A stretch of DNA of 45,803 nt from an uncultured delta proteobacterium (GCA_903881505.1 CAIRTM010000024.1:1-45803), one strand, 5' to 3'; shown: positions 4,648 to 18,352, numbered from the stretch's first letter. The notes: a model not told the origin generated them from the letters alone. Numbers and translations: made by a program.

Positions 4648-5301
4648 TTATTCGTGTGCTGTTTTATACGGGCCGTCAGGCAGGCCCCGCGTTTGCGAGT
4701 GCAGTGCCGAGAAATTGGCCTGCCTGGCAAGGTCCGGTGTGGGGTCTGTGATGGTGGAGGACAGCACCTGGGTAATGAGCGCATTGACAAGCATGCCGGC
4801 AAGTCCGCCGCCGCCGTCGCCGGAAGACGCCTGAGCAACGGCGGTTGCATCCCATAAAAGATCACCGGTTTTTACGTCAACCAGCTTGAGGGCCGCCCGA
4901 ACTTTTGTCACCGACTGTATGACCTGGTATTTCTGCCCCCATTCTTCGATGGTGATATACAGCACCGCGTCGGCCCCGATGTGCTCGCCGATTTTATCCA
5001 GCGGGACGGCGTTCATCTCCTCGGGCGCCGGCAGGCCGTTCTGCTTGAAAAAATAGTCGATCACGTAAACCGGGAAAACATAATAGCCCTTTTCCGCAAG
5101 CGGGCGCGTGATCGTGGACAGGAAAATGTAGGGCGCATTGACCGCGACCGAGTTGTTGTTCGGCGGGATGACGACGATAGAGCGCGGCCTGCTTCTTTCA
5201 AAGGCCGTGTAGTCATAGGGCGGCGTTGTTGCTGCGCAGCCTGCGGTCATCACAACACTGCACGCAAGCACGGCACGCCGCAGCCTGGTTGAGGCGCTCA
5301 T
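4648..5301 (-). CDS. DUF799/GNA1162-family lipoprotein
   Basis: A 217-residue predicted lipoprotein: signal sequence with lipobox TAGC around residues 19-22 and Ala at +2, predicting outer-membrane sorting. The mature part matches the DUF799 (neisserial GNA1162) family, with RSIVVIPPNNNS near residue 40, then PLAEKGYYVFPV and DYFFKQNGL, and a later IGADAVLYITIEEW strand. These proteins have a TolB/CsgG-like fold and occur beside CsgG and DUF4810 genes; their role is unsettled, with assembly of an outer-membrane complex proposed. It overlaps the DUF4810 gene by 4 bases (ATGA type), and AGGAGA precedes the start, so the three genes are translated together. Confidence 0.75.
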   Translation of the reverse strand: MSASTRLRRAVLACSVVMTAGCAATTPPYDYTAFERSRPRSIVVIPPNNNSVAVNAPYIFLSTITRPLAEKGYYVFPVYVIDYFFKQNGLPAPEEMNAVPLDKIGEHIGADAVLYITIEEWGQKYQVIQSVTKVRAALKLVDVKTGDLLWDATAVAQASSGDGGGGLAGMLVNALITQVLSSTITDPTPDLARQANFSALHSQTRGLPDGPYKTAHE

Positions 5302-5669
5302 AGCTTCTTCTCCTCATTCTGTCCGGCGCGTTTCAGCATTCCCTCGATCAGGGTGCGCGACTCGGGATACAGGTCCTGCTCCTGTTTGAATGCCGCTTTT
5401 GACTGCGAATCCTTGCCCTCCAGGGCGTACAAAAAGCCCAGATGGGCGTAGATGCCGGGCGGAACTTTCTTGCCCGCGGCCGCGGCTTTTTGAATATCAG
5501 CGGTCAGCTTCTCGATTTGTGTCCCCGTGTCCGCGGCGCCCGGCTTCATATAGGCATCCTGCAGCAGGTGTTCATATTCGCCCCAATAGTATATGTCTTT
5601 ATTGGTTGCGCATCCGGCCGACAGAACAAAGCTTACTGCCGCAAGGGCAGCCCACGCGGTTTTCATCAT
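5298..5669 (-). CDS. DUF4810-family lipoprotein
   Basis: A 123-residue small lipoprotein with lipobox SAGC around residues 17-20 and Ala at +2. The mature part starts with YYWGEYE, characteristic of the DUF4810 family, and continues as a helical repeat-like segment resembling one TPR unit (PPGIYAHLGFLYALEGK). It is the middle gene of the CsgG-DUF4810-DUF799 trio, 18 bases after the CsgG stop and overlapping DUF799 by 4 bases. No enzymatic residues are evident. Its constant linkage to the other two in many proteobacteria suggests a stoichiometric partner; the molecular function is unknown. Either of the two leading Met codons may be used. Confidence 0.7.
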   Translation of the reverse strand: MMKTAWAALAAVSFVLSAGCATNKDIYYWGEYEHLLQDAYMKPGAADTGTQIEKLTADIQKAAAAGKKVPPGIYAHLGFLYALEGKDSQSKAAFKQEQDLYPESRTLIEGMLKRAGQNEEKKL

Positions 5670-5687
5670 GTCAGGCGTTCCCGTGTC

Positions 5688-6380
5688 TTACTGCTGGATT
5701 TTCCAGGTGCCGTTTTCGATATCGCGCACCATGTTATTGACCGATTCCGTAATGGCAAAGTTCAATACTTTCCCGTTCAGGGTTGCGTCATAGCCCGCGG
5801 TGCCGCCGGTGCCGAGCACTTCCCGGTTGCTCAGGGCATACTCGCCGGCGCCCTGGGTGGAGTACACGATCTGCGATGTCAGCACATCAACGATATTGAG
5901 CGACACTTTGGCGTAGGCCACCTGTGTCTTGCCCGCGCCCAGGATGCCGAACAGCTGCTGGTCGCCGCTTACTTTCCGGCCGAACTCGGTAACATCGCCG
6001 GTTACCGTGTAGCGCGCGCCCTGAATGCTCTGTTTGGCTCCCATGAATTTTGCTTCCTGCTCGTTTTGCTGCAGGTTTTCACGGTCCACGACGTTAAAGC
6101 GGTTGGTCTGCTGCAGATGGGTTTTCAATATGGTTTTGGCCTGGCTGCCGAGCATGTCGGTGCCTGAAGAAAACAGCCCCTGCATGTACGTGGAGCGGTT
6201 CTGGAAGTTGCCGACCACCAGGGTCGTTTTCGGGCCGTTGTAGGCGGTGCCGTAGGTTGCCACTTTTTCCGGGACCACAACCCTGTGAGACTCCGTCGCG
6301 CAGCCTGCAAACATTACGAGCGCGAGCAGCGCAGCTGCCAGGCTTAACCAGTTGAATGAATTATTCTTCAAGCCGCTCAT
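5688..6380 (-). CDS. CsgG/HfaB-family lipoprotein
   Basis: A 230-residue lipoprotein: N-terminal helix ending in lipobox FAGC (about residues 24-27), then a CsgG fold with TTLVVGNFQNRST near residue 52, FNVVDRENLQQ around residues 93-105, ARYTVTGDVTEF, and a C-terminal alternating-strand region. CsgG forms the curli secretion channel, but no curlin (csgA/B), csgE or csgF is present, and the protein is shorter than E. coli CsgG (277 aa). Together with the two downstream genes it forms the three-lipoprotein cluster known from Neisseria and other proteobacteria. Its start has AGGAGG seven bases upstream and it is the first gene of this unit. Confidence 0.75.
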   Translation of the reverse strand: MSGLKNNSFNWLSLAAALLALVMFAGCATESHRVVVPEKVATYGTAYNGPKTTLVVGNFQNRSTYMQGLFSSGTDMLGSQAKTILKTHLQQTNRFNVVDRENLQQNEQEAKFMGAKQSIQGARYTVTGDVTEFGRKVSGDQQLFGILGAGKTQVAYAKVSLNIVDVLTSQIVYSTQGAGEYALSNREVLGTGGTAGYDATLNGKVLNFAITESVNNMVRDIENGTWKIQQ

Positions 6381-8150: not shown

Positions 8151-9506
8151 TCAGTCCTGCGGCTGTTCTTCCGTCCTGTCGCGCAGGAACACCCACAGGG
8201 GCGTTGCCAGCAGTATCAGGATGAGCGACCACATGCCGGCCTGGGCTCCGGCGCCGAAAATGGTGCCAAGGGAGAAGGTGAACGCGACGATCGCAACCGG
8301 GGTATAGGGGCCGATGCGCAGCACCCGCGACAGGGGATGGCGCTTCATGTACAGGACCGCCTCGACAACCGAGCAGAACACGTAGGGTATCATGGCCGCG
8401 TCGGTTGAAAAATCGACGATCAGGCTATACACGGCAACGAGGGTTGCGGAGCCCGAGTTCTCGATCAGCACGAGCGCTGTCGCAAGGCATACCGAAATAA
8501 GAAGCCCTGCGGCGGGAACGCCGCGCGATGATACGCGGCCGAAAACCGCCGGCATCGCGCCGTCGCGTGCCGCGGCCATGGGCACCTGGGCAAGCATCAG
8601 GGTCCAGCCGTTGAGGGCTCCGGCCGACGAGATGATCGCGGCCAGGGAAATGGCTATGGCGGCCCATTCGCCCCATACGGCACGGGCGGCGTCGGCAAAG
8701 GGCGCAGCGGACTGCATGAGCGTTTCACGGGGGATGATGCCCATGACCGAGGCGGTGCCGAGAATGTAGATCAGGGCCGATACGACCGTGCCGATCACCG
8801 TGGCGCGCGGTATCGTCCGTTCGGGATCAATAACGCTGCCGGCGGGCACGGTCGCCGATTCAAGCCCCAGAAAGGCGAACATGGTAATAGGCGCGGTCGC
8901 TGCCAGCGCGCTGAAGAACGGCAGCCCGCTCGGGTTGACGGGCGCAAAGGTCCGCCAGTCGACCCACAGCAGTCCGAACACGCTGATCGAAATAAAGGGA
9001 ATGAGCTTGGTGTAGGTGGCCGCCGCCATGAAGAGACCCGCCTCGCGCACGCCTCGGAGGTTCACCAGCGTGATGATCCAGATCGATGCCAGACCGATCA
9101 TGAGCTGGAGGATATGCTGCCCCGCCAGTGCCGGGATAAGTTCGCAGAGGTAGCCGACCAGGGCAGCGGCAATGGCGGGAAGCGACGCCCAGATCGATAT
9201 CCAGTAGCCCCAGGCGATAATGAAGCCGGCAAAGCGGCCGAAGGCCATGCGCGTGTATGCGTACGGCCCGCCGGTGGCCGGCGCGATGCGTGCCAGCCGC
9301 GCGAAAACCAGGCCCAGGCACACCGCGCCGACGGCCATGACTGCCCAGCCGATAAGCGCCGTTGAGCCATAGCGCGCCAATGCCGCCGGGGCGATAAAAA
9401 AGCCCGAGCCGATCATGTTGCCGATGACAAGCGCTGTGCAGGAGGCCAACCCCAGGCTGCGCGCGCCGGGAGAGTCTTTTGAAGAATCAGCTGTAGCGCC
9501 CTTCAT
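8151..9506 (-). CDS. APC-family amino acid/polyamine antiporter, AdiC-like
   Basis: A 451-residue inner-membrane protein of about 12 helices in the APC superfamily, closest by eye to the arginine:agmatine exchanger AdiC. Helix 1 carries GNMIGSGFF (substrate carboxylate loop), helix 6 FAFLGLESATVPAG with the conserved Glu, and helix 8 GWTLM with the Trp that stacks on substrate in AdiC. Two AdiC substrate residues appear changed: Trp202 to Phe and Asn101 to Leu (hand alignment), so specificity may differ. It would import a basic amino acid in exchange for the decarboxylated amine, removing positive charge. It is last in the six-gene operon, 33 bases after the binding-protein gene. There is no strong ribosome site. 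Confidence 0.8.
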   Translation of the reverse strand: MKGATADSSKDSPGARSLGLASCTALVIGNMIGSGFFIAPAALARYGSTALIGWAVMAVGAVCLGLVFARLARIAPATGGPYAYTRMAFGRFAGFIIAWGYWISIWASLPAIAAALVGYLCELIPALAGQHILQLMIGLASIWIITLVNLRGVREAGLFMAAATYTKLIPFISISVFGLLWVDWRTFAPVNPSGLPFFSALAATAPITMFAFLGLESATVPAGSVIDPERTIPRATVIGTVVSALIYILGTASVMGIIPRETLMQSAAPFADAARAVWGEWAAIAISLAAIISSAGALNGWTLMLAQVPMAAARDGAMPAVFGRVSSRGVPAAGLLISVCLATALVLIENSGSATLVAVYSLIVDFSTDAAMIPYVFCSVVEAVLYMKRHPLSRVLRIGPYTPVAIVAFTFSLGTIFGAGAQAGMWSLILILLATPLWVFLRDRTEEQPQD

Positions 9507-9539
9507 GGTTCGATCCGTACTATTATTTGACCCTTCCGC

Positions 9540-10448
9540 CTACCTGCGGGCAAAGATCTTGAAAAGCTTCAGCGTCATGTCACCCGGCTCGCCGAAATAG
9601 CGGCGGTAGATATCGACGATCCTGTCTGAACGGTACAAACCGCTCAGGGTCGCATCCACTAACAGCCGCAGGTCTTCATCTGCCCGGGGCAGGGCAAAGG
9701 CAAGCGGTTCATACGTGAAATACCGGTCAAGTATCATCAGGTCCGCCCCGGCCCTGTCCGGTGACGCGTAATGCTCCAGGATGACCCGGTCGGCAAAGTA
9801 GGCATCGGCGTTGCCGTCGGAAACGAGCTTAACACCGTGTGTATTGTCGTCAACGGCTACGAGGGTGGCGACAACGCCGAGTGTTTTCGCCCTGCCCCGC
9901 AGCCATTCTTCAGTGTCGGTGCCGGCATGCACCGCGTAGGTATGCCGCGACAGGGCACGGTGCATGGTACCCCGCCAGAGGGGGCCCTCAAAAGCCGGCC
10001 CGCCCTGCAGAACACGGACCATCTCGTGCGGGGCATCCCTGCGCAGCAGTGCGCCGATACCGGTTGAATAGATGGGGATCGAGAACGACACGCGTTTCCG
10101 GCGTTCGAGCGTATCCGAGACAGCGCCGCAGAGCATGTCGATCCGGCCGTCGGAAACCATGGCAAGCCCCGATTCAAGGCTGACCGGTATAAAGCTCACC
10201 TTGAGGCCGCTCAGGCCGAGCTTTGCCTTCAGGGCGTCGGCGATAAGGCGGGCCAGATCGATGGCATACCCGGAGGGCTCCTTGTCGGCCCCTGCTGCAG
10301 AAAACGGCGCCTGGTCCGGAACATAGCCCAGCCGCAGGGTCCCCGTGCTGTGTATGTGTTCCAGTGTCTGCGCCTGAGCTGCCATGGGCAGCGCCGGCAG
10401 CATGATCATGATCAGAAGGCTTGCGTAACTCAGTGAAATCTTTTTCAT
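9540..10448 (-). CDS. Periplasmic solute-binding protein family 3 (amino-acid type)
   Basis: A 302-residue protein with a cleavable signal peptide (about residues 1-25, ending AAQAQ) and a bilobed SBP_bac_3 fold: LRLGYVPDQAPFSA, SGYAIDLARLIADAL and DMLCGAVSDTLERRKRVSFS are the expected ligand-lobe segments. Members bind amino acids for ABC importers or sensor proteins, but no ABC permease or ATPase is nearby. It sits between the PotE-like and AdiC-like antiporters in the decarboxylase operon. That suggests it binds the amino acid or amine handled there and either concentrates substrate in the periplasm or signals. ATG 10448 is chosen because AAAGGAG is seven bases upstream and the signal peptide starts there (MKKIS). 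Confidence 0.8.
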   Translation of the reverse strand: MKKISLSYASLLIMIMLPALPMAAQAQTLEHIHSTGTLRLGYVPDQAPFSAAGADKEPSGYAIDLARLIADALKAKLGLSGLKVSFIPVSLESGLAMVSDGRIDMLCGAVSDTLERRKRVSFSIPIYSTGIGALLRRDAPHEMVRVLQGGPAFEGPLWRGTMHRALSRHTYAVHAGTDTEEWLRGRAKTLGVVATLVAVDDNTHGVKLVSDGNADAYFADRVILEHYASPDRAGADLMILDRYFTYEPLAFALPRADEDLRLLVDATLSGLYRSDRIVDIYRRYFGEPGDMTLKLFKIFARR

Positions 10449-10498
10449 GGAAAGGCTCCTTTCAGCCGGCCCGTTTCTCCGGGCGTCATGCACGGCGG

Positions 10499-11824
10499 TC
10501 ATGCCGCCCTCGTTGAATCCCTGTCGTCGAACCGGTAGGCTATAAAGCCGTAGAGCAGGTAGCCGACCGCCATGACGATCATGGCGCCGAACACGGCATC
10601 TTCACCCGAGGCATACAGGGCGTAAAAGCAGTAGAGCATGGCGATAATAAGCACGGCCGCGTTGCGGCGATAGACGGATGCTTCAGCGTGCGCCTTGTAC
10701 ATGATGATCAGCAGGCCTGAAAGCGAGGTGACATAGGGTATGATGTTGGTCACCGCAGCCAGGCTGACCAGCTTGTTGAACTGTGCGGTGGCATCGGGTG
10801 ACATGGTGGAAAAGGCCATCAGCGTCTGCAGGATGCCGTTCACGATCAGGCCGATAACAGGCGCTTCCAGCCCGCTGACCCTTGAGAAAAACGCGGGGAA
10901 CATGCGGCCGTCGGCGGTATATTTGGCGGTCTGGGCAAGCGTGAACTGCCAGCCCAGCAGGGAACCGAGGCAGGCGATCACCGCCAGCGCCATGATGATC
11001 TTGCCGATGAACGGGTTGAACATCTGCGCGTACACATAGGCAAAGGGCGCGCTTGATGAGGCAAGGTCGGCGTTGGGCACGATGCCCTGGATCACCGTGG
11101 TTGAGAGAATGTAGACGACCGCGGCCCCAAGGGTGCCGAGCATGCAGGCCAGGGGGACTGTCCGCTTCGGGTTTTCCACGGCGTCGGAATTCTGCGCGGC
11201 CGATTCCATGCCCAGGAACGCCCAGAGCGTCAGGGGGATGCTCCGGGTGATGCTTTCCGTGAGCGGGAAATGGTGCGGGTTCCAGGCTGCGGCGAACAGT
11301 GACGGCTTAAACCAGAACCAGCCGATGAACGACAGTCCGGCGACCGGAATAAGTACGCCCCAGACGGTCAGGCTTCCGATCCGGCCGGTTATCCTTGGGC
11401 CGCCGAAGTTCGCAGCGGTTGTCAGCCAGATCAGCGCTATAACGCCGGCGCACAGCGGAATCGAACCGGTTCCCAGCCAGGGGAAAAAAGGCGTCAGATA
11501 GCCTACGGCGGAAATGGCAATCGCCACGTTGCCGATGGCAAGAGACAGGAAATACAGGAACGAACACATGAAAAAGCATGATGAGCCGTGGGCCTCCTCC
11601 GAGTAGGCGGACATGCCTCCGGAGCGGATGCAGAGGATGCCGCATTGCGCGAAGCAGTAGGCGATGGCCATCGAGCCCACGGCCGTGACCAGCCAGGACA
11701 GCAGCGAAACCCCTCCTATCTGGGCCATGCTGGCGGGCAGCATGATAATGCCCGAGCCCATCATGTTGACCGCCACGAGGGTCGTAAGCCCCGTCAGACT
11801 CATTTTCTTGCCGGGATCAGCCAT
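10499..11824 (-). CDS. potE: PotE-like amino acid:polyamine antiporter
   Basis: This 441-residue, 12-helix APC transporter strongly resembles E. coli PotE (putrescine:ornithine antiporter, 439 aa). Diagnostic segments include VNMMGSGIIMLP in helix 1, ISWLVTAVGSMA-like helix 2, ANFGGPRITGRIGSLTVWGV, WNPHHFPL, LTLWAFLGMESA in helix 6, SLLGWQFTLAQ in helix 8 and FYALYASGEDA near the end. The helix-3 Asn and helix-6 Trp seen in AdiC/PotE are kept, unlike in the AdiC-like neighbour. It should exchange an external basic amino acid for its decarboxylation product. It lies 27 bases after adiA. PotE-like proteins can also carry lysine/cadaverine, so substrate pairing with the two decarboxylases is an inference. 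Confidence 0.88.
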   Translation of the reverse strand: MADPGKKMSLTGLTTLVAVNMMGSGIIMLPASMAQIGGVSLLSWLVTAVGSMAIAYCFAQCGILCIRSGGMSAYSEEAHGSSCFFMCSFLYFLSLAIGNVAIAISAVGYLTPFFPWLGTGSIPLCAGVIALIWLTTAANFGGPRITGRIGSLTVWGVLIPVAGLSFIGWFWFKPSLFAAAWNPHHFPLTESITRSIPLTLWAFLGMESAAQNSDAVENPKRTVPLACMLGTLGAAVVYILSTTVIQGIVPNADLASSSAPFAYVYAQMFNPFIGKIIMALAVIACLGSLLGWQFTLAQTAKYTADGRMFPAFFSRVSGLEAPVIGLIVNGILQTLMAFSTMSPDATAQFNKLVSLAAVTNIIPYVTSLSGLLIIMYKAHAEASVYRRNAAVLIIAMLYCFYALYASGEDAVFGAMIVMAVGYLLYGFIAYRFDDRDSTRAA

Positions 11825-11851
11825 GGGTCTCTCCTTTATACGGATAGCCGG

Positions 11852-14161
11852 TTAACGTCTTAGACACAGAACAGTGTACATGCCGTCCACCACCTCGGCG
11901 CCTTCAACTTCATGCTCAAAGCCGGGAAAGCGCGCGTCCCATTTCCCCAGGGTCTGCAGGTAGTGTATCTGCGGGCTGTTCTTTGCGCCGAAATTTTCTC
12001 CGGACATGACCATCGGGATGCCCGGAGGATAGGGCATGACCGCGTTGGCGGCGGTGCGGCCCGCGAGCCTGTCGGCGCCCACCAGCTCGACCGCGCCGCT
12101 GACAATGCCCTGGAACGCCGTAGCCGGGGTCACATCCTGCACGGGCAGTTTTTCGTACGCGGCATTGAGCACCGCGCCGGGGTCGTCCTTTTTGATAAAG
12201 GCGAACATTTCATCGCCCAGGTCCCGCAGGCCAAGCCTGCCGTAGCGGCCGGGATGCGCAGCGGCCAGCTCAGGCAGGGCCTCGTGCAGGGGCGCGTTGC
12301 TGTCATAGAGGCGCTTGAAGGACAGCAGCGTGTTGACGAGCGTGGCCCATTTGCCCTTGGTGATGCCGATGGAGAATAAGAACATCACCTGGAAATTCGT
12401 CGTGCGGGTCGGCACAATGCCGAAGCGGCCGAGAAAGGCGGTGAACAGCTCGGCCGGGATGCCTGTATCGAGCAGCCTGCCGTCATCGCCCATGCCGGGG
12501 GTGAGCAGGCTCACCTTGATGGGGTCGAGCATGCACCAGTTGTCGGTGAGGCCGTCAAAGCCGTGCCAAGCGTCCCCGGGGTGCAGGCGCCAGCAGTCCT
12601 GTTCGGTTACAAGCAGTTCGGCCGGGGCGTCCGCGAACGCGTAGCCGGCGCCGGTTTTCGGCTCGCGCACCTGCTCGGCGTTCCAGGGCTTGAAGAACCA
12701 GTCGCCGCTGTCCGTGTGGCGCCGGTGGAGCTTTGCCACCACCTGCCGGAAATGAACCGCCTCCCTGATCACTTCAGTTGTCAGGTGCCTGCCGCCCGCG
12801 CCGTCCATCATGGCCGTGGAGATGTCGTTCGAGGCGATGATGGCGTACAGGGGCGACGTGGTCGCGTGCATCATGTAGGACTGGTTGAAGCGGTCGTGGG
12901 GTATGGGCTCGCGCCCGTCGCGGACATGAATGTAGGATGCCTGGGACAGGGCGGCCAGCAGCTTGTGGGTCGAGTGGGTGGCGAATACCGTGGCCCGGTC
13001 CGCCCCGTGTTCGGATGCCTTGCCGCGCATGGCAAAGTGGTCGGCATACATGGGGTTGAAACGGGCGTAGGCATACCAGGCCTCGTCAAAATGCACGCGC
13101 GGGCTGCTTTGGGCCAGCAGATCTTCGGCCTGCGCGGCATTGTAGCAGATGCCGTCATAGGTGCAGCCGGTCAGAACCGCGTAGACCGGCTCACGGCGCG
13201 TCATCTCGGACGCCAGGGGGCTTGCGGCGACTTTCGAGCGTATCGTGGCAACGGACATTTCCCCGGCGTGGATCGGGCCGATAATGCCGTAGCGGTTGCG
13301 CGTAGGAACCATGTACACCGGCACGCCGCCGGTCAGGATAAGGCCCTGCTCGATGGACTTGTGGCAGTTGCGGTCGCACACCGCCACGGCGCCCCGCGGG
13401 ATGCAGGCCTGCATGATGGTGCGGTTGGACTCGGAGGTGCCGCCCACCACGTTGTAGGAGCGGTGGGACCCGAAAACGGCAGCCGCGTATTTCTCGCTTT
13501 CGGCAATGGGGCCGGTGTGGTCGAGCAGCGAGCCGAGCTGGCCGCGCTCGATGCCCATGTCGGTGCGGAACAGGTTCTCGCCGTAAAAGTCGAAGAACAC
13601 CCGGCCGACGGGCAGTTTGGTGAAGGCGATGCCGCCCTGGTGGCCGGGCGCCGACCAGGAGTGCTCGCGCAGCATGGCATAGCGGGCCATGGCGTTTGCA
13701 AAGGGCGGCAGCAGCTGCATGCGGTAGCGGTGCATCGCGGCCAGCACCCGGCCGGCGATGAAATCGGCCGTGTCCTCGAGCATCCAGACGAACTCATCGA
13801 CCTGCGCCATCACGTCTTCGGTTATTTCCGTAACGCCCTCGCTGGTTTCGGCCAGCAGGAACACCGGCACCTTTTCATGGCGCTGGCGCAGCTCGCGCAG
13901 CAGCTGCACGGCCGGGCGGCCGCCGCCGGGCACGGCGCCTTTCAGCTGCCAGCTCAGCATCACCGCGTGGATGGAGGCATCCGAGACGATGCTGGCAAGG
14001 CCGTCCTGAAAGCTGACCGCGCTGATCACCGCGGCGTCGTGGGCTTCGATCGCTTCCACCACAGCCTGGGCGCTGCGTCCCAGCGCGGTCTCCAGCCGTT
14101 CCAGTCCGTCCTCTACAATCAGTACCCTGCTTTTGATGGGCTTATATCCGGTGACGATCAT
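11852..14161 (-). CDS. adiA: Biodegradative arginine decarboxylase (AdiA type)
   Basis: A 769-residue PLP-dependent fold-type-I decarboxylase converting arginine to agmatine and CO2 while consuming a cytoplasmic proton. Order: N-terminal wing domain resembling a response-regulator fold (SRVLIVEDGLERLETAL), PLP domain with HSTHK (Schiff-base Lys) about residue 385, and C-terminal domain. Much of the C-terminal half parallels E. coli AdiA (755 aa): SQASYIHVRDG, FNQSYMMHATTSPLYAI, WFFKPWN, GIVPTRTTNFQVMFLFS, PYPPGIPMVMSGENFG. An in-frame start lies 144 bases upstream, but ATG 14161 has AGGAGA eight bases upstream and the protein then aligns with the family N-terminus. It lies between the barrel gene and potE, with 27-43-base gaps. 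Confidence 0.92.
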   Translation of the reverse strand: MIVTGYKPIKSRVLIVEDGLERLETALGRSAQAVVEAIEAHDAAVISAVSFQDGLASIVSDASIHAVMLSWQLKGAVPGGGRPAVQLLRELRQRHEKVPVFLLAETSEGVTEITEDVMAQVDEFVWMLEDTADFIAGRVLAAMHRYRMQLLPPFANAMARYAMLREHSWSAPGHQGGIAFTKLPVGRVFFDFYGENLFRTDMGIERGQLGSLLDHTGPIAESEKYAAAVFGSHRSYNVVGGTSESNRTIMQACIPRGAVAVCDRNCHKSIEQGLILTGGVPVYMVPTRNRYGIIGPIHAGEMSVATIRSKVAASPLASEMTRREPVYAVLTGCTYDGICYNAAQAEDLLAQSSPRVHFDEAWYAYARFNPMYADHFAMRGKASEHGADRATVFATHSTHKLLAALSQASYIHVRDGREPIPHDRFNQSYMMHATTSPLYAIIASNDISTAMMDGAGGRHLTTEVIREAVHFRQVVAKLHRRHTDSGDWFFKPWNAEQVREPKTGAGYAFADAPAELLVTEQDCWRLHPGDAWHGFDGLTDNWCMLDPIKVSLLTPGMGDDGRLLDTGIPAELFTAFLGRFGIVPTRTTNFQVMFLFSIGITKGKWATLVNTLLSFKRLYDSNAPLHEALPELAAAHPGRYGRLGLRDLGDEMFAFIKKDDPGAVLNAAYEKLPVQDVTPATAFQGIVSGAVELVGADRLAGRTAANAVMPYPPGIPMVMSGENFGAKNSPQIHYLQTLGKWDARFPGFEHEVEGAEVVDGMYTVLCLRR

Positions 14162-14204
14162 CGTTTTCTTCTCCTGGGCTGTTAGTGTGGTTTCTGGGTC
14201 AGCG

Positions 14205-15596
14205 TCAGAACTGTATCTTGCCGTACAGCATCGTGTAGCTCCACCCGTCATTGCCGCTGGTTGACTGCCGGGCCCCGCTGTCCGGGTCGGCATAGGCGGC
14301 CACAAGGGTGAAGGAAAGATGCCTGGTCGCGGTCCAGTCGATCATCATGTCATATTCATCGGCAAACTGCGCGCTTGTGACGCCGTAGGCGCCGCTGTCA
14401 TGTATTTTGAAGCGGTAATAGATCAGGTTGGCGGTGACGGCGTCAACCGGGCTGACGGTCAGCCTGAGCATGTGCGTGTCGAGGTTCGAATTGCTCAGCA
14501 CGTATTCGCCCAGGATCTCACCCTGGTACCAGCTGCCCCAGTCGTTGAAACCGTAAAAAAGCGGGTCGTAGTTCTCATCGAAACTCGAGTAGCGATACGT
14601 GAGCGTCGGCTTCCAGAAGATGTTCTCAAACTGGTAGCCGGGCGCCACGTACCAGCCGCGGCCGTTGTCAAAACCGTGGTCGGCGTCTTCATACACGTAC
14701 TCGGCCTCGAGCTTGAACGGCTTCAGGACCGCGGCGGCCAGTCCGGCAAACGGGTTGATGCTGAAGCGGATGTCGCAGATGTTCATGGAGTCGCGCGAAT
14801 CCATGTCCGAGCTGATGAAATACAGTCCGCCGCCGGCCCCGCCGTATTTGCCGAACGCATAGTCCAGGGTCGCGCCGCGCGCGCTGGTGTCGGTATGCGG
14901 ATTGTCGTCGGCCTTGAGGTAGAAAAGATCGCCGGACAGATTGCCCGATTTCATGTGCGCAAGCGTCAGGAAATCGGCGGCATGGCGGTCGCCCAGCCAG
15001 TAGCCGCCGCGCGAGCCGCCGTTGCTCGACTCATTGAAAAACAGGAATCCGGTGCCGGCTATGTACTGCTGGCGCCCGATGGTGATATCGACGAAATCCT
15101 TGTCCAGGGAGCTGAACAGGTCGCCTGAGCGCCACCCGAGATAGGCCTTGCCCACGCGCTTGTTTTCATCCTGCATGCGGTGCACGGTAGAGCCGGCGGC
15201 ATCGGTATCGCTCGTGCGGGTCGCCAGGAACGTCGCCATGCCGTAGAGTTCCCCGGCCTGCGGCAGCACGTAGCGGCCCCCGACGCCGACGCCGCAGGAG
15301 TGTTCGCGCCAGCCGGTTGACTTTTTGCCGAGGATGTTTTTCGACTCCCCGAACCACGAGTTGCCCTGGGCAAAGTTGGCGAACTCAACCCGCATGCCGG
15401 CCTGCAGGAAGCTGCCGTTTTCGTCCTGCCAGAAGCGCAGCGGGTTTTCGTCTGCGCGCATCCTGTGGATGAACTCCGAGAGGATGTTTTCGTTCTTGGA
15501 AAACCCCTGCGTGTCATCCGCAGAAGCGCTGCCCGCGGCGCAGGCTGATGCCAGCGCAAGCGCACACAACCCACATCGTTTAACCAGGTTCTTCAT
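14205..15596 (-). CDS. Outer-membrane beta-barrel porin (alginate-export-like)
   Basis: A 463-residue protein with a signal peptide (MKNLVKRC start, cleavage near SASA-DD) and alternating amphipathic strands throughout, ending in Phe (YGKIQF) as expected for a BAM client. The central segment VDITIGRQQYIAGTGFLFF and the later GDRHAADFLTL resemble the alginate_exp/AlgE-type barrel fold. This does not imply alginate; the family includes general anionic and amino-acid-associated channels. It lies between the two decarboxylase genes, 43 bases before adiA and 74 bases after the LdcA-like gene. A role as the outer-membrane entry/exit route for basic amino acids and their amines is inferred from position only. 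Start at 15596 is set by GGAGG seven bases upstream. Confidence 0.7.
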   Translation of the reverse strand: MKNLVKRCGLCALALASACAAGSASADDTQGFSKNENILSEFIHRMRADENPLRFWQDENGSFLQAGMRVEFANFAQGNSWFGESKNILGKKSTGWREHSCGVGVGGRYVLPQAGELYGMATFLATRTSDTDAAGSTVHRMQDENKRVGKAYLGWRSGDLFSSLDKDFVDITIGRQQYIAGTGFLFFNESSNGGSRGGYWLGDRHAADFLTLAHMKSGNLSGDLFYLKADDNPHTDTSARGATLDYAFGKYGGAGGGLYFISSDMDSRDSMNICDIRFSINPFAGLAAAVLKPFKLEAEYVYEDADHGFDNGRGWYVAPGYQFENIFWKPTLTYRYSSFDENYDPLFYGFNDWGSWYQGEILGEYVLSNSNLDTHMLRLTVSPVDAVTANLIYYRFKIHDSGAYGVTSAQFADEYDMMIDWTATRHLSFTLVAAYADPDSGARQSTSGNDGWSYTMLYGKIQF

Positions 15597-15670
15597 CCCC
15601 GTATCCTCCACCGGTGTTGTATGCCGCCGTGCGTTCAGGCCACGCCCCGCGCGCTGGACAGGCCGTCCAT

Positions 15671-17965
15671 TCAATCTTTCAGGCAATAGGTCATATACAC
15701 AAGGCTTCCGTCCTCATTCCGTTCGATCTCGACGCCGTGGGTTTCGTGCTCAAATCCGGGGAATCGGGAGTCAAAGGCCTGCAGCGCGAGCAGGTAGTCG
15801 ACAATGGCGCGCGTTTCATCGGCTATTTTTTCTCCCGGCATCATGAGCGGGATGCCGGGAGGATAGGGCACGACCTGCACGGCCACCACGCGGCCGGCCA
15901 TGTCGGCCACGCGGATGCGCTCAACCTGGCGCCTGACCAGCCTGGCGTAGGTCGCGCGCGGGCTCAGCACGGCCTCGGGCAGGACGGTAAAAGCCTTGTC
16001 CATGGCTTCCAGCAGGCGGGTGTTTGCCATTTCAGCGTGCATGGCGTGCGCGAGGTCCTGCAGCCCCATGCCGCGGTAACACTCAGGGGATGCTGTGACC
16101 AGCTTGGGGAGCGCCTCTTCCAGCGGCGCGTTCGAGTCATAGAATTTCTTGAATTCCATGAGCCCGGCGATCAGTGAGCCCCATTTGCCCTTGGTGATGC
16201 CGATGGAAAAAAGCACCAGGAACGAATAGGGCTCGGTTTTCTCCACCACGATGCCCCGGCTGGAAAGAAACGATGAAAGCAGCGGGGCCGGGATGCCCGC
16301 AGGCTCCAGGCGGCCCTTCTGATCAAGGCCCGGCGCCAGCACGGTGATCTTGATGGGATCAAGCATGCAATAGCCCTCTTCAAGATCGCCGAACCCGTGC
16401 CAGGCGTCCCCGGGGTGCAGCACCCAGGCGGAGCTGTCGGTGCGCAGCACGTCCGGGTCGACGTCTTCAAATGGCTTGCCGCCCACGGTGTCGGGCTGCC
16501 AGACGTCAAACCACCAGTCCCCGGCCCTGCGCGCGCACATCTGCTTTTTCATGCGCACCATGGCCTGACGGAACGCGATGGCCTCGTCCAGGCACTCGTC
16601 GGTCAGGAAATCGCCGGCGTCGGCCATCATTTTGGCCGAAACATCGGTCGAGGCGATGATGCTGTACTGCGGCGAGGTCGAGGTGTGCATCATGAACGCC
16701 TCGTTGAACAGGCTCGGATCGACCGGCACCCGGCCGGCGCGGATGTGGATCATCGAGGCCTGCGACAGGGCCGCCAGCAGCTTGTGCGTTGAGTGCGTGA
16801 CGGTGATGGTCGCATCCTCCGGGTTGCGCTCTCCCCGATGCATGCCGTAGCGCCCCTCGTAGACGGGGTTGAAGCGGGCATAGGCATACCAGGCTTCGTC
16901 ATAGTGGATACGCGGCACTGTTTTGCTCAACTCGGCGGTGGTGGCCCTGACGTTGTAGCACAGGCCGTCATAGGTCGAATTGGTCAGCACGGCCAGGACC
17001 GGCCGGGAGTTTTTATCCCCGACCAATGCGCTGGCCGCAATTTTCCGGCCGGCAGCCCCGGCGGTCATCTCGGTGCGGGGCACCGGGCCTATCAGGCCGC
17101 GGGCGTTGCGCAGCGGCATCATGTACACCGGCATGGCACCCGACATGTTCAGGGCATAATTCATTGATTTGTGGCAGTTGCGGTCGACAAGCACGACGTC
17201 GTTGTCGGCCACCGCCGAGTTGAGGATGATCTGGTTGCTGGAGGAACTGCCGCCGATTGAAAAGTAGGTATAATCCGCGCCGAAGACCCGGGCCGCGTGG
17301 CTTTCGGCCTCGGCCACGGGCCCGTTGTGGTCGTTAAGCGAGCCCAGTTCGCCCACCGAGATGGACAAATCCGAGCGCAGCATCTGCTCCCCGTAGAAAT
17401 CAAGGAAGCTTTTGCCCACGGCCGTTTTCATGAATGCCGTGCCGCCGGTGTGGCCGGGCGTGTGCCAGGAATACTCGTGCGTGTCGGCAAAATTCACCAT
17501 GGCCCCGAAGAACGGGGGCAGGATGCTGTCAAGGTAGCGCCGGGCAGCGGCCTGGATGCGGCCGGCGATGAAGGCCGGGCTGTCCTCGGGCAGCAGGATG
17601 AACCCGTCGATCGCCTCAACGAATTCAAGCGGCACCCGGCCGCTGTGGATCTTCTGCATGCCCAGAATTATCGGCATGCCGGCGCTGCGGCGCCGCACCA
17701 GGCCGATGATCGACAGCGCTTTTTCGGGTGCGGCCTGGCAAAGGTTCCAGCCCAGGATGATGCAGCTGTAGGCGGGGTCCGAGACAAGCGCGCTTTCGCC
17801 TTCTTCCAGGGAGTGCGCCGGTATGATCCGCAGGCCGTGTTCCTTCAGGGCGTCGGCGATCGCGGCGGCGCTGCGCGCGACCGCGGTGTCACCGTGCATG
17901 TCGGCTATGACCAGCACCGGAAAACCATGCGCCAGTTCGGACGGAAAACGGGTGTTTGCGCTCAT
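15671..17965 (-). CDS. Lysine/arginine/ornithine decarboxylase, LdcA-like
   Basis: A 764-residue fold-type-I PLP decarboxylase: wing domain (FPVLVIADMHGDTAVA onward), PLP core with HSTHK, and C-terminal domain. It is closer by eye to the Pseudomonas lysine decarboxylase LdcA (about 750 aa) than to AdiA: SWHTPGHTGGTAF, LRSDLSISVGELGSL, FNEAFMMHTSTSPQYSIIAS, WWFDVWQPD, GIVVEKTEPYSFLVLFSIG, PYPPGIPLMMPGE. Lysine to cadaverine is the best guess; ornithine or arginine cannot be excluded. It is the first gene of the operon, preceded by a 387-bp leader with palindromes. ATG 17965 is preferred over the start nine codons upstream because AAAGGAGGG lies seven bases before it. Confidence 0.87.
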   Translation of the reverse strand: MSANTRFPSELAHGFPVLVIADMHGDTAVARSAAAIADALKEHGLRIIPAHSLEEGESALVSDPAYSCIILGWNLCQAAPEKALSIIGLVRRRSAGMPIILGMQKIHSGRVPLEFVEAIDGFILLPEDSPAFIAGRIQAAARRYLDSILPPFFGAMVNFADTHEYSWHTPGHTGGTAFMKTAVGKSFLDFYGEQMLRSDLSISVGELGSLNDHNGPVAEAESHAARVFGADYTYFSIGGSSSSNQIILNSAVADNDVVLVDRNCHKSMNYALNMSGAMPVYMMPLRNARGLIGPVPRTEMTAGAAGRKIAASALVGDKNSRPVLAVLTNSTYDGLCYNVRATTAELSKTVPRIHYDEAWYAYARFNPVYEGRYGMHRGERNPEDATITVTHSTHKLLAALSQASMIHIRAGRVPVDPSLFNEAFMMHTSTSPQYSIIASTDVSAKMMADAGDFLTDECLDEAIAFRQAMVRMKKQMCARRAGDWWFDVWQPDTVGGKPFEDVDPDVLRTDSSAWVLHPGDAWHGFGDLEEGYCMLDPIKITVLAPGLDQKGRLEPAGIPAPLLSSFLSSRGIVVEKTEPYSFLVLFSIGITKGKWGSLIAGLMEFKKFYDSNAPLEEALPKLVTASPECYRGMGLQDLAHAMHAEMANTRLLEAMDKAFTVLPEAVLSPRATYARLVRRQVERIRVADMAGRVVAVQVVPYPPGIPLMMPGEKIADETRAIVDYLLALQAFDSRFPGFEHETHGVEIERNEDGSLVYMTYCLKD

Positions 17966-18352
17966 TCGGGAGCCCTCCTTTCCCACGGACATTGATCGTT
18001 ATTGATAGAAAAATACAGGCGTGTAACAGTCGCGCGCCCCGCGCGAGATTCCGGCCTTCCGGAAGGCTGCTGTTCCATGTGAACAGTCCGACTCTACTGC
18101 AGCTGTCATTGCAACGTAAGAAGCAAGGGGAATCGATGCAGCGTGTTTTTCTGCCCCGGTTCGAGAAAGGATAGATCAGGCCGTTCGTTTCGTCAATATG
18201 AAATGTGGATTATGTTTCGGGACGGTGATAGGCCTCCCGAGGCCGCCGGCAAGCGCAGGGGCGCAATTTTTTTTCGAACATGGAAGAATCGTCACGCCAT
18301 GCGATTGTTGTGCAGATGACAGCACCGGTGCCTGCTCCTGCGAGTCAATTCT
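17966..18352. other. Leader/intergenic region upstream of the decarboxylase operon
   Basis: This 387-bp stretch between waaA and the LdcA-like gene carries palindromes at 18054-18067, 18070-18086 and 18231-18244. No open reading frame with a ribosome site was found. The operon promoter should lie here, but no clear sigma-70 or sigma-54 pair was seen by eye. Confidence 0.45.
18054..18086. promoter_or_regulatory. Adjacent palindromes in the decarboxylase leader, candidate operator
   Basis: A perfect 14-bp palindrome GCCTTCCGGAAGGC (18054-18067) is followed after two bases by CTGTTC-N5-GAACAG (18070-18086), about 90-120 bases before the first gene's start. Their dyad symmetry fits regulator binding or an RNA hairpin; no regulator gene is in the cluster. 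Confidence 0.35.

Follow-up and report, generated by a model that had tools for sequence, protein, structure and literature searches.

A six-gene locus from an uncultured delta proteobacterium encodes a candidate trans-envelope module for basic-amino-acid decarboxylation in which a solute-binding protein may serve a PotE-type antiporter

The AR3 (adiA-adiY-adiC), cad (cadBA) and speF-potE loci of E. coli are built from the same enzyme and antiporter families, and follow the same proton-consuming logic, as a six-gene locus found at positions 8151 to 17965 of a 45,803-nucleotide stretch of DNA from an uncultured delta proteobacterium (GCA_903881505.1 CAIRTM010000024.1:1-45803; the whole stretch is hereafter called the window). 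However, the E. coli loci contain neither a gene for a periplasmic solute-binding protein (SBP) nor one for an outer-membrane barrel. Compared with the textbook design of enzyme and exchanger, the predicted products of the window locus include two additions, an outer-membrane pore and a periplasmic binding protein, the latter being unusual. Moreover, the partners of AdiA here, unlike in the E. coli systems, are PotE and an AdiC-like protein from which W202 and N101 are missing.

Another related system is the pSymA cluster of Sinorhizobium meliloti (odc1 (SMa0680), SMa0682 and SMa0684), which lies beside arcABC and likewise combines a decarboxylase and PotE with the SBP and the AdiC-like subfamily seen here. 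It differs from the window in carrying a SpeF-type ornithine decarboxylase (ODC) instead of AdiA and a cation-efflux (CDF) family gene, and in having no adjoining barrel. The initial annotation of the window had held that known systems contain only the enzyme and the inner-membrane exchanger, a view not supported in light of the same SBP gene being present in this cluster; the literature passages found on the cluster do not discuss that SBP. A role in acid resistance has been proposed for the cluster (PMC10385936), the adiC gene SMa0684 is required in symbiosis as determined by transposon sequencing (TnSeq) (PMC7268258), and SMa0680 and SMa0682 are upregulated in a tolC mutant.

TAXI-GltS of Bordetella pertussis offers a further parallel, as its SBP gene is closely linked to that of a secondary transporter, without an ABC or TRAP partner, as observed here (PMC12344293). 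Before its description, the use of a soluble SBP by secondary transporters was known from TRAP and TTT alone, and TAXI-GltS was recognized from the same kind of genomic evidence as that presented below (PMC12344293, 2025). The two cases differ in SBP type and in transporter fold, GltS being thought to work as an elevator symporter and PotE being an APC-fold exchanger. It has been suggested that SBP use may require an elevator mechanism, and further classes have been sought as a test (PMC12344293). Literature searches aimed at SBP-dependent APC exchangers, which covered open-access papers, yielded no example. PotE belongs to the APC superfamily and works differently from elevator transporters, and the PotE-SBP pair, conserved across proteobacterial classes, makes it possible to test this on an exchanger of another fold. 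If the two proteins indeed work together, they make up an SBP-dependent exchanger of the APC fold for which no precedent was found, and they would break the proposed rule that links SBPs to elevator-type transporters (PMC12344293). Such a system would further illustrate how substrate and amine are moved across the outer membrane by diderms resisting acid. It is also relevant to the rhizobial cluster with its symbiosis-required member (PMC7268258).

The locus consists of six intact open reading frames on the minus strand (17965..8151), transcribed in the order DC1, barrel, DC2, PotE, SBP and AdiC-like antiporter, where DC1 and DC2 are the two decarboxylases. The gaps between them measure 74, 43, 27, 50 and 33 bp in that order, so the one-strand grouping that the initial annotation had described, with gaps under 80 bp, is real. 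The mechanically assigned starts of DC2 (TTG 14305), the barrel (TTG 15686) and the SBP (ATG 10502) are probably too early. DC1 is preceded by a 387-bp non-coding region, which contains one promoter-like pattern match (TTGACG-17-TATCCT, 18168..18196, minus strand), and a pattern search detected no minus-strand promoter-like match in the gaps preceding the barrel and the SBP, where separate promoters would have spoken against a common unit. From this arrangement, the six genes probably form a single-transcript module.

Comparable loci were collected by a genome scan with DC2, by plasmid searches and by whole-genome searches. In every locus carrying both genes (16/16, from alpha-, beta- and gammaproteobacteria plus the window), the SBP gene immediately follows potE, with both on the same strand, and decarboxylases are present at all 16. 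The scan with DC2 retrieved the order DC1-DC2-PotE-SBP-AdiC in Psychromonas marina and in three Vibrionaceae loci, as well as an expanded version with an added ODC in Mesorhizobium; plasmid searches added loci from Vibrio pelagius, S. meliloti and Paraburkholderia, while whole-genome searches added those of an alphaproteobacterium (G833) and of genomes G1472, G1520 and G1629. Conserved linkage in relatives, on which the initial annotation had made its proposal depend, is therefore found for the decarboxylases, PotE, the SBP and the AdiC-like protein far beyond the genome of the window, and the gene grouping is not due to chance. To assess exclusivity, a profile of the module SBPs was run against 767 proteobacterial genomes, and 1.5-kb flanks were inspected. 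All six matches above 300 bits adjoin potE, four of them outside the profile-building set, whereas none of the 35 matches below 300 bits does, and at least nine of the latter adjoin ABC permease genes. The potE-linked subfamily adjoins no ABC permease gene in the searched loci, where its coupling to a secondary transporter gene is conserved and exclusive, as expected of SBP-dependent secondary transporters of the TRAP, TTT and TAXI-GltS kind. In Psychromonas marina, the PotE-SBP pair is tandemly duplicated as a unit (L004:12466-17830), which further supports that the two genes act together.

A second SBP group, scoring 237-250 bits against the module profile (L255, L256, L257 and L258, from Rhizobiales and another proteobacterium), adjoins neither potE nor recognized HisMQ-type ABC permease genes. 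In addition, a CDF family gene recurs beside the modules of Psychromonas (L004:20869-21876), Vibrio, Mesorhizobium and Sinorhizobium (the other positions being L101:3768-4709, L190:18743-19669 and L197:4760-5686), and may relate to cation or polyamine movement; none was seen beside the window operon.

The SBP itself (9540..10448, minus strand) is an orphan family 3 protein with an SBP_bac_3 domain (Pfam) and a signal peptide. Seven- and eight-member alignments, together with an AlphaFold2 model (predicted local distance difference test, pLDDT, 80), assign it the amino-acid-binding-protein fold, and the solved structures nearest to that fold bind Glu/Asp, Arg or Orn. In LAO, Arg77 grips the alpha-carboxylate and Asp161 the alpha-amino group of the ligand. 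As the equivalents of both are kept among the aligned module SBPs, as R (H in one) and as D or E, respectively, the ligand is likely an amino acid and not the decarboxylated amine. The best PDB sequence match of the SBP is AncCDT-1, but its identification as a cyclohexadienyl dehydratase was rejected, since the catalytic Glu of that enzyme is absent at the aligned position and the neighbors are transporters. The usual partners of family 3 SBPs are ABC importers with HisMQ/GlnP-type permeases. In the genome of the window (96.8% complete), no match was obtained to TIGR01726, the signature of HEQRo-type polar-amino-acid ABC permeases, which is present in 11 of 14 control genomes; hence, the SBP cannot serve such a permease there. 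Strict adjacency to potE, combined with the lack of this HisMQ/GlnP-type permease signature in the genome, points to PotE as the SBP partner, and we infer their coupling on these grounds.

The first transporter (10499..11824, minus strand) passes the PotE model PRK10655 (661.9 bits, cut-off 409), falls 36 bits short of TIGR04299 (523.8 vs 560 bits), and keeps C62, W201, E207, W292 and Y425, which we take to be the key residues of E. coli PotE. PotE-like proteins are also paired with AdiA alone in Photobacterium, so the protein of the window may exchange ornithine for putrescine or handle another pair. The last gene (8151..9506, minus strand), which like the first transporter encodes an AA_permease_2 protein, passes no antiporter equivalog (322 vs 574 bits for AdiC). 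Its product has about 35% identity to AdiC and keeps W293, while the N101L and W202F changes relative to E. coli AdiC are common to all module copies; it is 51-69% identical to those in Woeseiaceae, Psychromonas, Mesorhizobium and S. meliloti. By these comparisons, it is assigned to an APC antiporter subfamily that the modules have in common and that is related to AdiC but distinct from it.

Regarding the enzymes, the two pyridoxal phosphate (PLP) decarboxylases recognized initially are both winged proteins with OKR_DC_1 N-terminal, major and C-terminal domains, and no further OKR_DC gene was found in the genome of the window. DC2 (11852..14161, minus strand) passes the AdiA equivalog PRK15029 of NCBIfam (1186.8 bits, cut-off 1167) and falls inside the AdiA clade with a support of 100; judged by score and tree, it is an AdiA-type arginine decarboxylase, as had been annotated. 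DC1 (15671..17965, minus strand), a winged fold-type I enzyme, remains below that cut-off (790.8 bits), is 68-69% identical to the Psychromonas and Vibrio module copies and forms a clade of its own with them. The label LdcA-like first given to DC1 is not upheld by the tree, in which LdcA groups with Meso_DCa and Rleg_DC (support 100) and DC1 is placed apart, on the Adc/AdiA side (98-100). The best PDB match of DC1 by sequence is 6q6i (about 47% identity), named arginine decarboxylase by its depositors and presumably P. aeruginosa LdcA. Just beyond the AdiA gene of the Vibrio modules lies a gene matching Phos_pyr_kin (pyridoxal kinase-like; L005:12531-13388, and similarly in L006 and L007), which could possibly supply PLP to the two PLP enzymes.

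The barrel (14205..15596, minus strand) has a signal peptide and a C-terminal F. Its match to Alginate_exp (PF13372) lies below the cut-off (21.3 bits vs a gathering threshold of 25.2, E 1.3e-4), but its homologues exceed that cut-off, and it is classified by sequence as a divergent Alginate_exp-type protein; no sign of alginate export was seen, the context being amino acid decarboxylation. No PDB sequence match was obtained even at E 10. The barrel of the window has no match in 16 class relatives, nor at the first module loci examined, but a homologue is present in genome G1472 (33% identity over 401 aligned columns, E 4e-60). Barrels of other families recur in other modules. Between SBP and AdiC, Psychromonas encodes a porin and Mesorhizobium a Gcw_chp (TorF-like) protein; in V. 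pelagius, AdiA is immediately followed by a Porin_1 protein, and in G833 a Porin_4 protein lies 4 bp past the decarboxylase. A BBP2 protein precedes a decarboxylase in Lichenicola, with PotE and SBP missing there. At 73 adiA loci without SBP, a crude predictor found four barrel-like genes among 1089 neighbors, a base rate to be taken as a lower bound since the predictor missed three of eight known barrels, including that of the window. That barrels without common ancestry have been recruited time and again speaks for a functional need. On plasmids, an amine oxidase gene immediately precedes a homologue of the window barrel in Acinetobacter, and monoamine oxidase and aldehyde dehydrogenase genes are found near one in Azospirillum; both contexts are compatible with amine or amino acid passage through the barrel. 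The G1472 operon is arranged on one strand as barrel-DC-ODC-PotE-SBP-arcA-arcB-arcC-AdiC (L252:1801-14753); from its gene content, it constitutes a predicted complete arginine-to-putrescine circuit that includes the whole arginine deiminase pathway (arcABC).

Based on these results, we consider that there is an even chance that the locus is a horizontally acquired module for basic-amino-acid decarboxylation across both membranes, with the SBP feeding PotE and with a dedicated outer-membrane channel. In such a module, the barrel would admit the amino acid through the outer membrane, and the SBP, given its fold and its kept Arg/Asp pair, would capture the alpha-amino acid in the periplasm and pass it to PotE, its constant genetic neighbor. 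PotE would then swap the amino acid for the amine made inside, an exchange known for the PotE family, while DC2 and DC1 would decarboxylate the substrate by the established chemistry of their family, with one cytoplasmic proton used and CO2 released per turnover. The AdiC-like antiporter would serve a second substrate/product pair or take in arginine. The net outcome would be cytoplasmic alkalinization and charge movement, resulting in acid resistance and/or proton-motive force. Modules also lie beside arginine deiminase genes in several relatives. An agmatine deiminase route was discarded, as no AguA was found in the genome of the window, and one ureohydrolase encoded there scores below the agmatinase cut-off. 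Acquisition by horizontal transfer is probable, because no barrel match was found in 16 class relatives, a member of the same genus among them, nor DC1 in those listed. The more specific proposal, that PotE works with the SBP encoded next to it as a binding-protein-dependent antiporter of the APC (LeuT-like) fold and that this pair, with the barrel, completes a decarboxylation circuit from outer membrane to cytoplasm, is advanced tentatively, with slightly less than even confidence.

Several observations weigh against this interpretation. An S. meliloti odc1 mutant is reported to show no defect at pH 5.5. The SBP has not retained the LAO side-chain residues D11, Y14 and F52; its ligand is therefore not established as a basic one, and the sequence of DC1 singles out none of Lys, Orn or Arg as its substrate. 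No adjoining barrel is present in S. meliloti, G1520, G1629 and some vibrios (Vibrio J1-1), so the barrel is not obligatory, and a single-sequence structure model of the window barrel reached a pLDDT of 30 and was not used. Of the path across both membranes envisaged in the initial annotation, the six-gene unit, its conserved linkage and the recurrence of a barrel hold up, even if barrels are absent beside several modules; its arginine/lysine specificity is not established, as the exchanger is of PotE type and the DC1 substrate is not fixed by sequence, and its generation of membrane potential is conjectural.

The strongest competing explanation, although we regard it as unlikely, is an ordinary decarboxylase/antiporter acid-resistance operon in which the SBP is no partner of PotE, but a periplasmic buffer or scavenger of amino acids, or the ligand-binding portion of a sensor. 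Precedents exist for orphan SBPs and for sensor domains of the SBP type, the same genome has SBP_bac_3 domains in open frames of 606 and 1574 amino acids, and the physical interaction of SBP and PotE is predicted from linkage. Nevertheless, strict placement after potE at the 16 loci and the exact tracking of the SBP subfamily with potE are what a dedicated partner predicts, and no sensor gene was seen as a common neighbor of the loci. Alternatively, the SBP could belong to an ABC importer whose genes lie at another site, and its position among the six genes would merely co-regulate uptake of the decarboxylase substrate. This would agree with the usual role of SBP_bac_3 proteins and with the ABC permeases adjoining its distant homologues. 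We consider this highly improbable, given the lack of a HEQRo-type permease in a genome about 97% complete (the missing 3%, or a permease of another type, being the caveat) and the lack of ABC permeases beside the potE-linked subfamily.

As to the barrel, it could be an unrelated outer-membrane gene caught by chance and contributing nothing specific, as many modules lack one, the barrel families differ between modules, and the window barrel lies between DC1 and DC2, a position other than that in G1472. The homologous barrel of the G1472 module, the presence of barrels within or next to five further modules when the base rate is low, and the amine oxidase, monoamine oxidase and aldehyde dehydrogenase genes beside or near its plasmid homologues make such a coincidence improbable.

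With respect to the remainder of the window, an Rfam scan detected no leader or riboswitch family. Omp85/BamA-like, LpxA-like and LpxD genes indicate a diderm host. A lipoprotein trio of CsgG, DUF4810 and GNA1162-like genes was also observed on the minus strand at positions 4648-6380.

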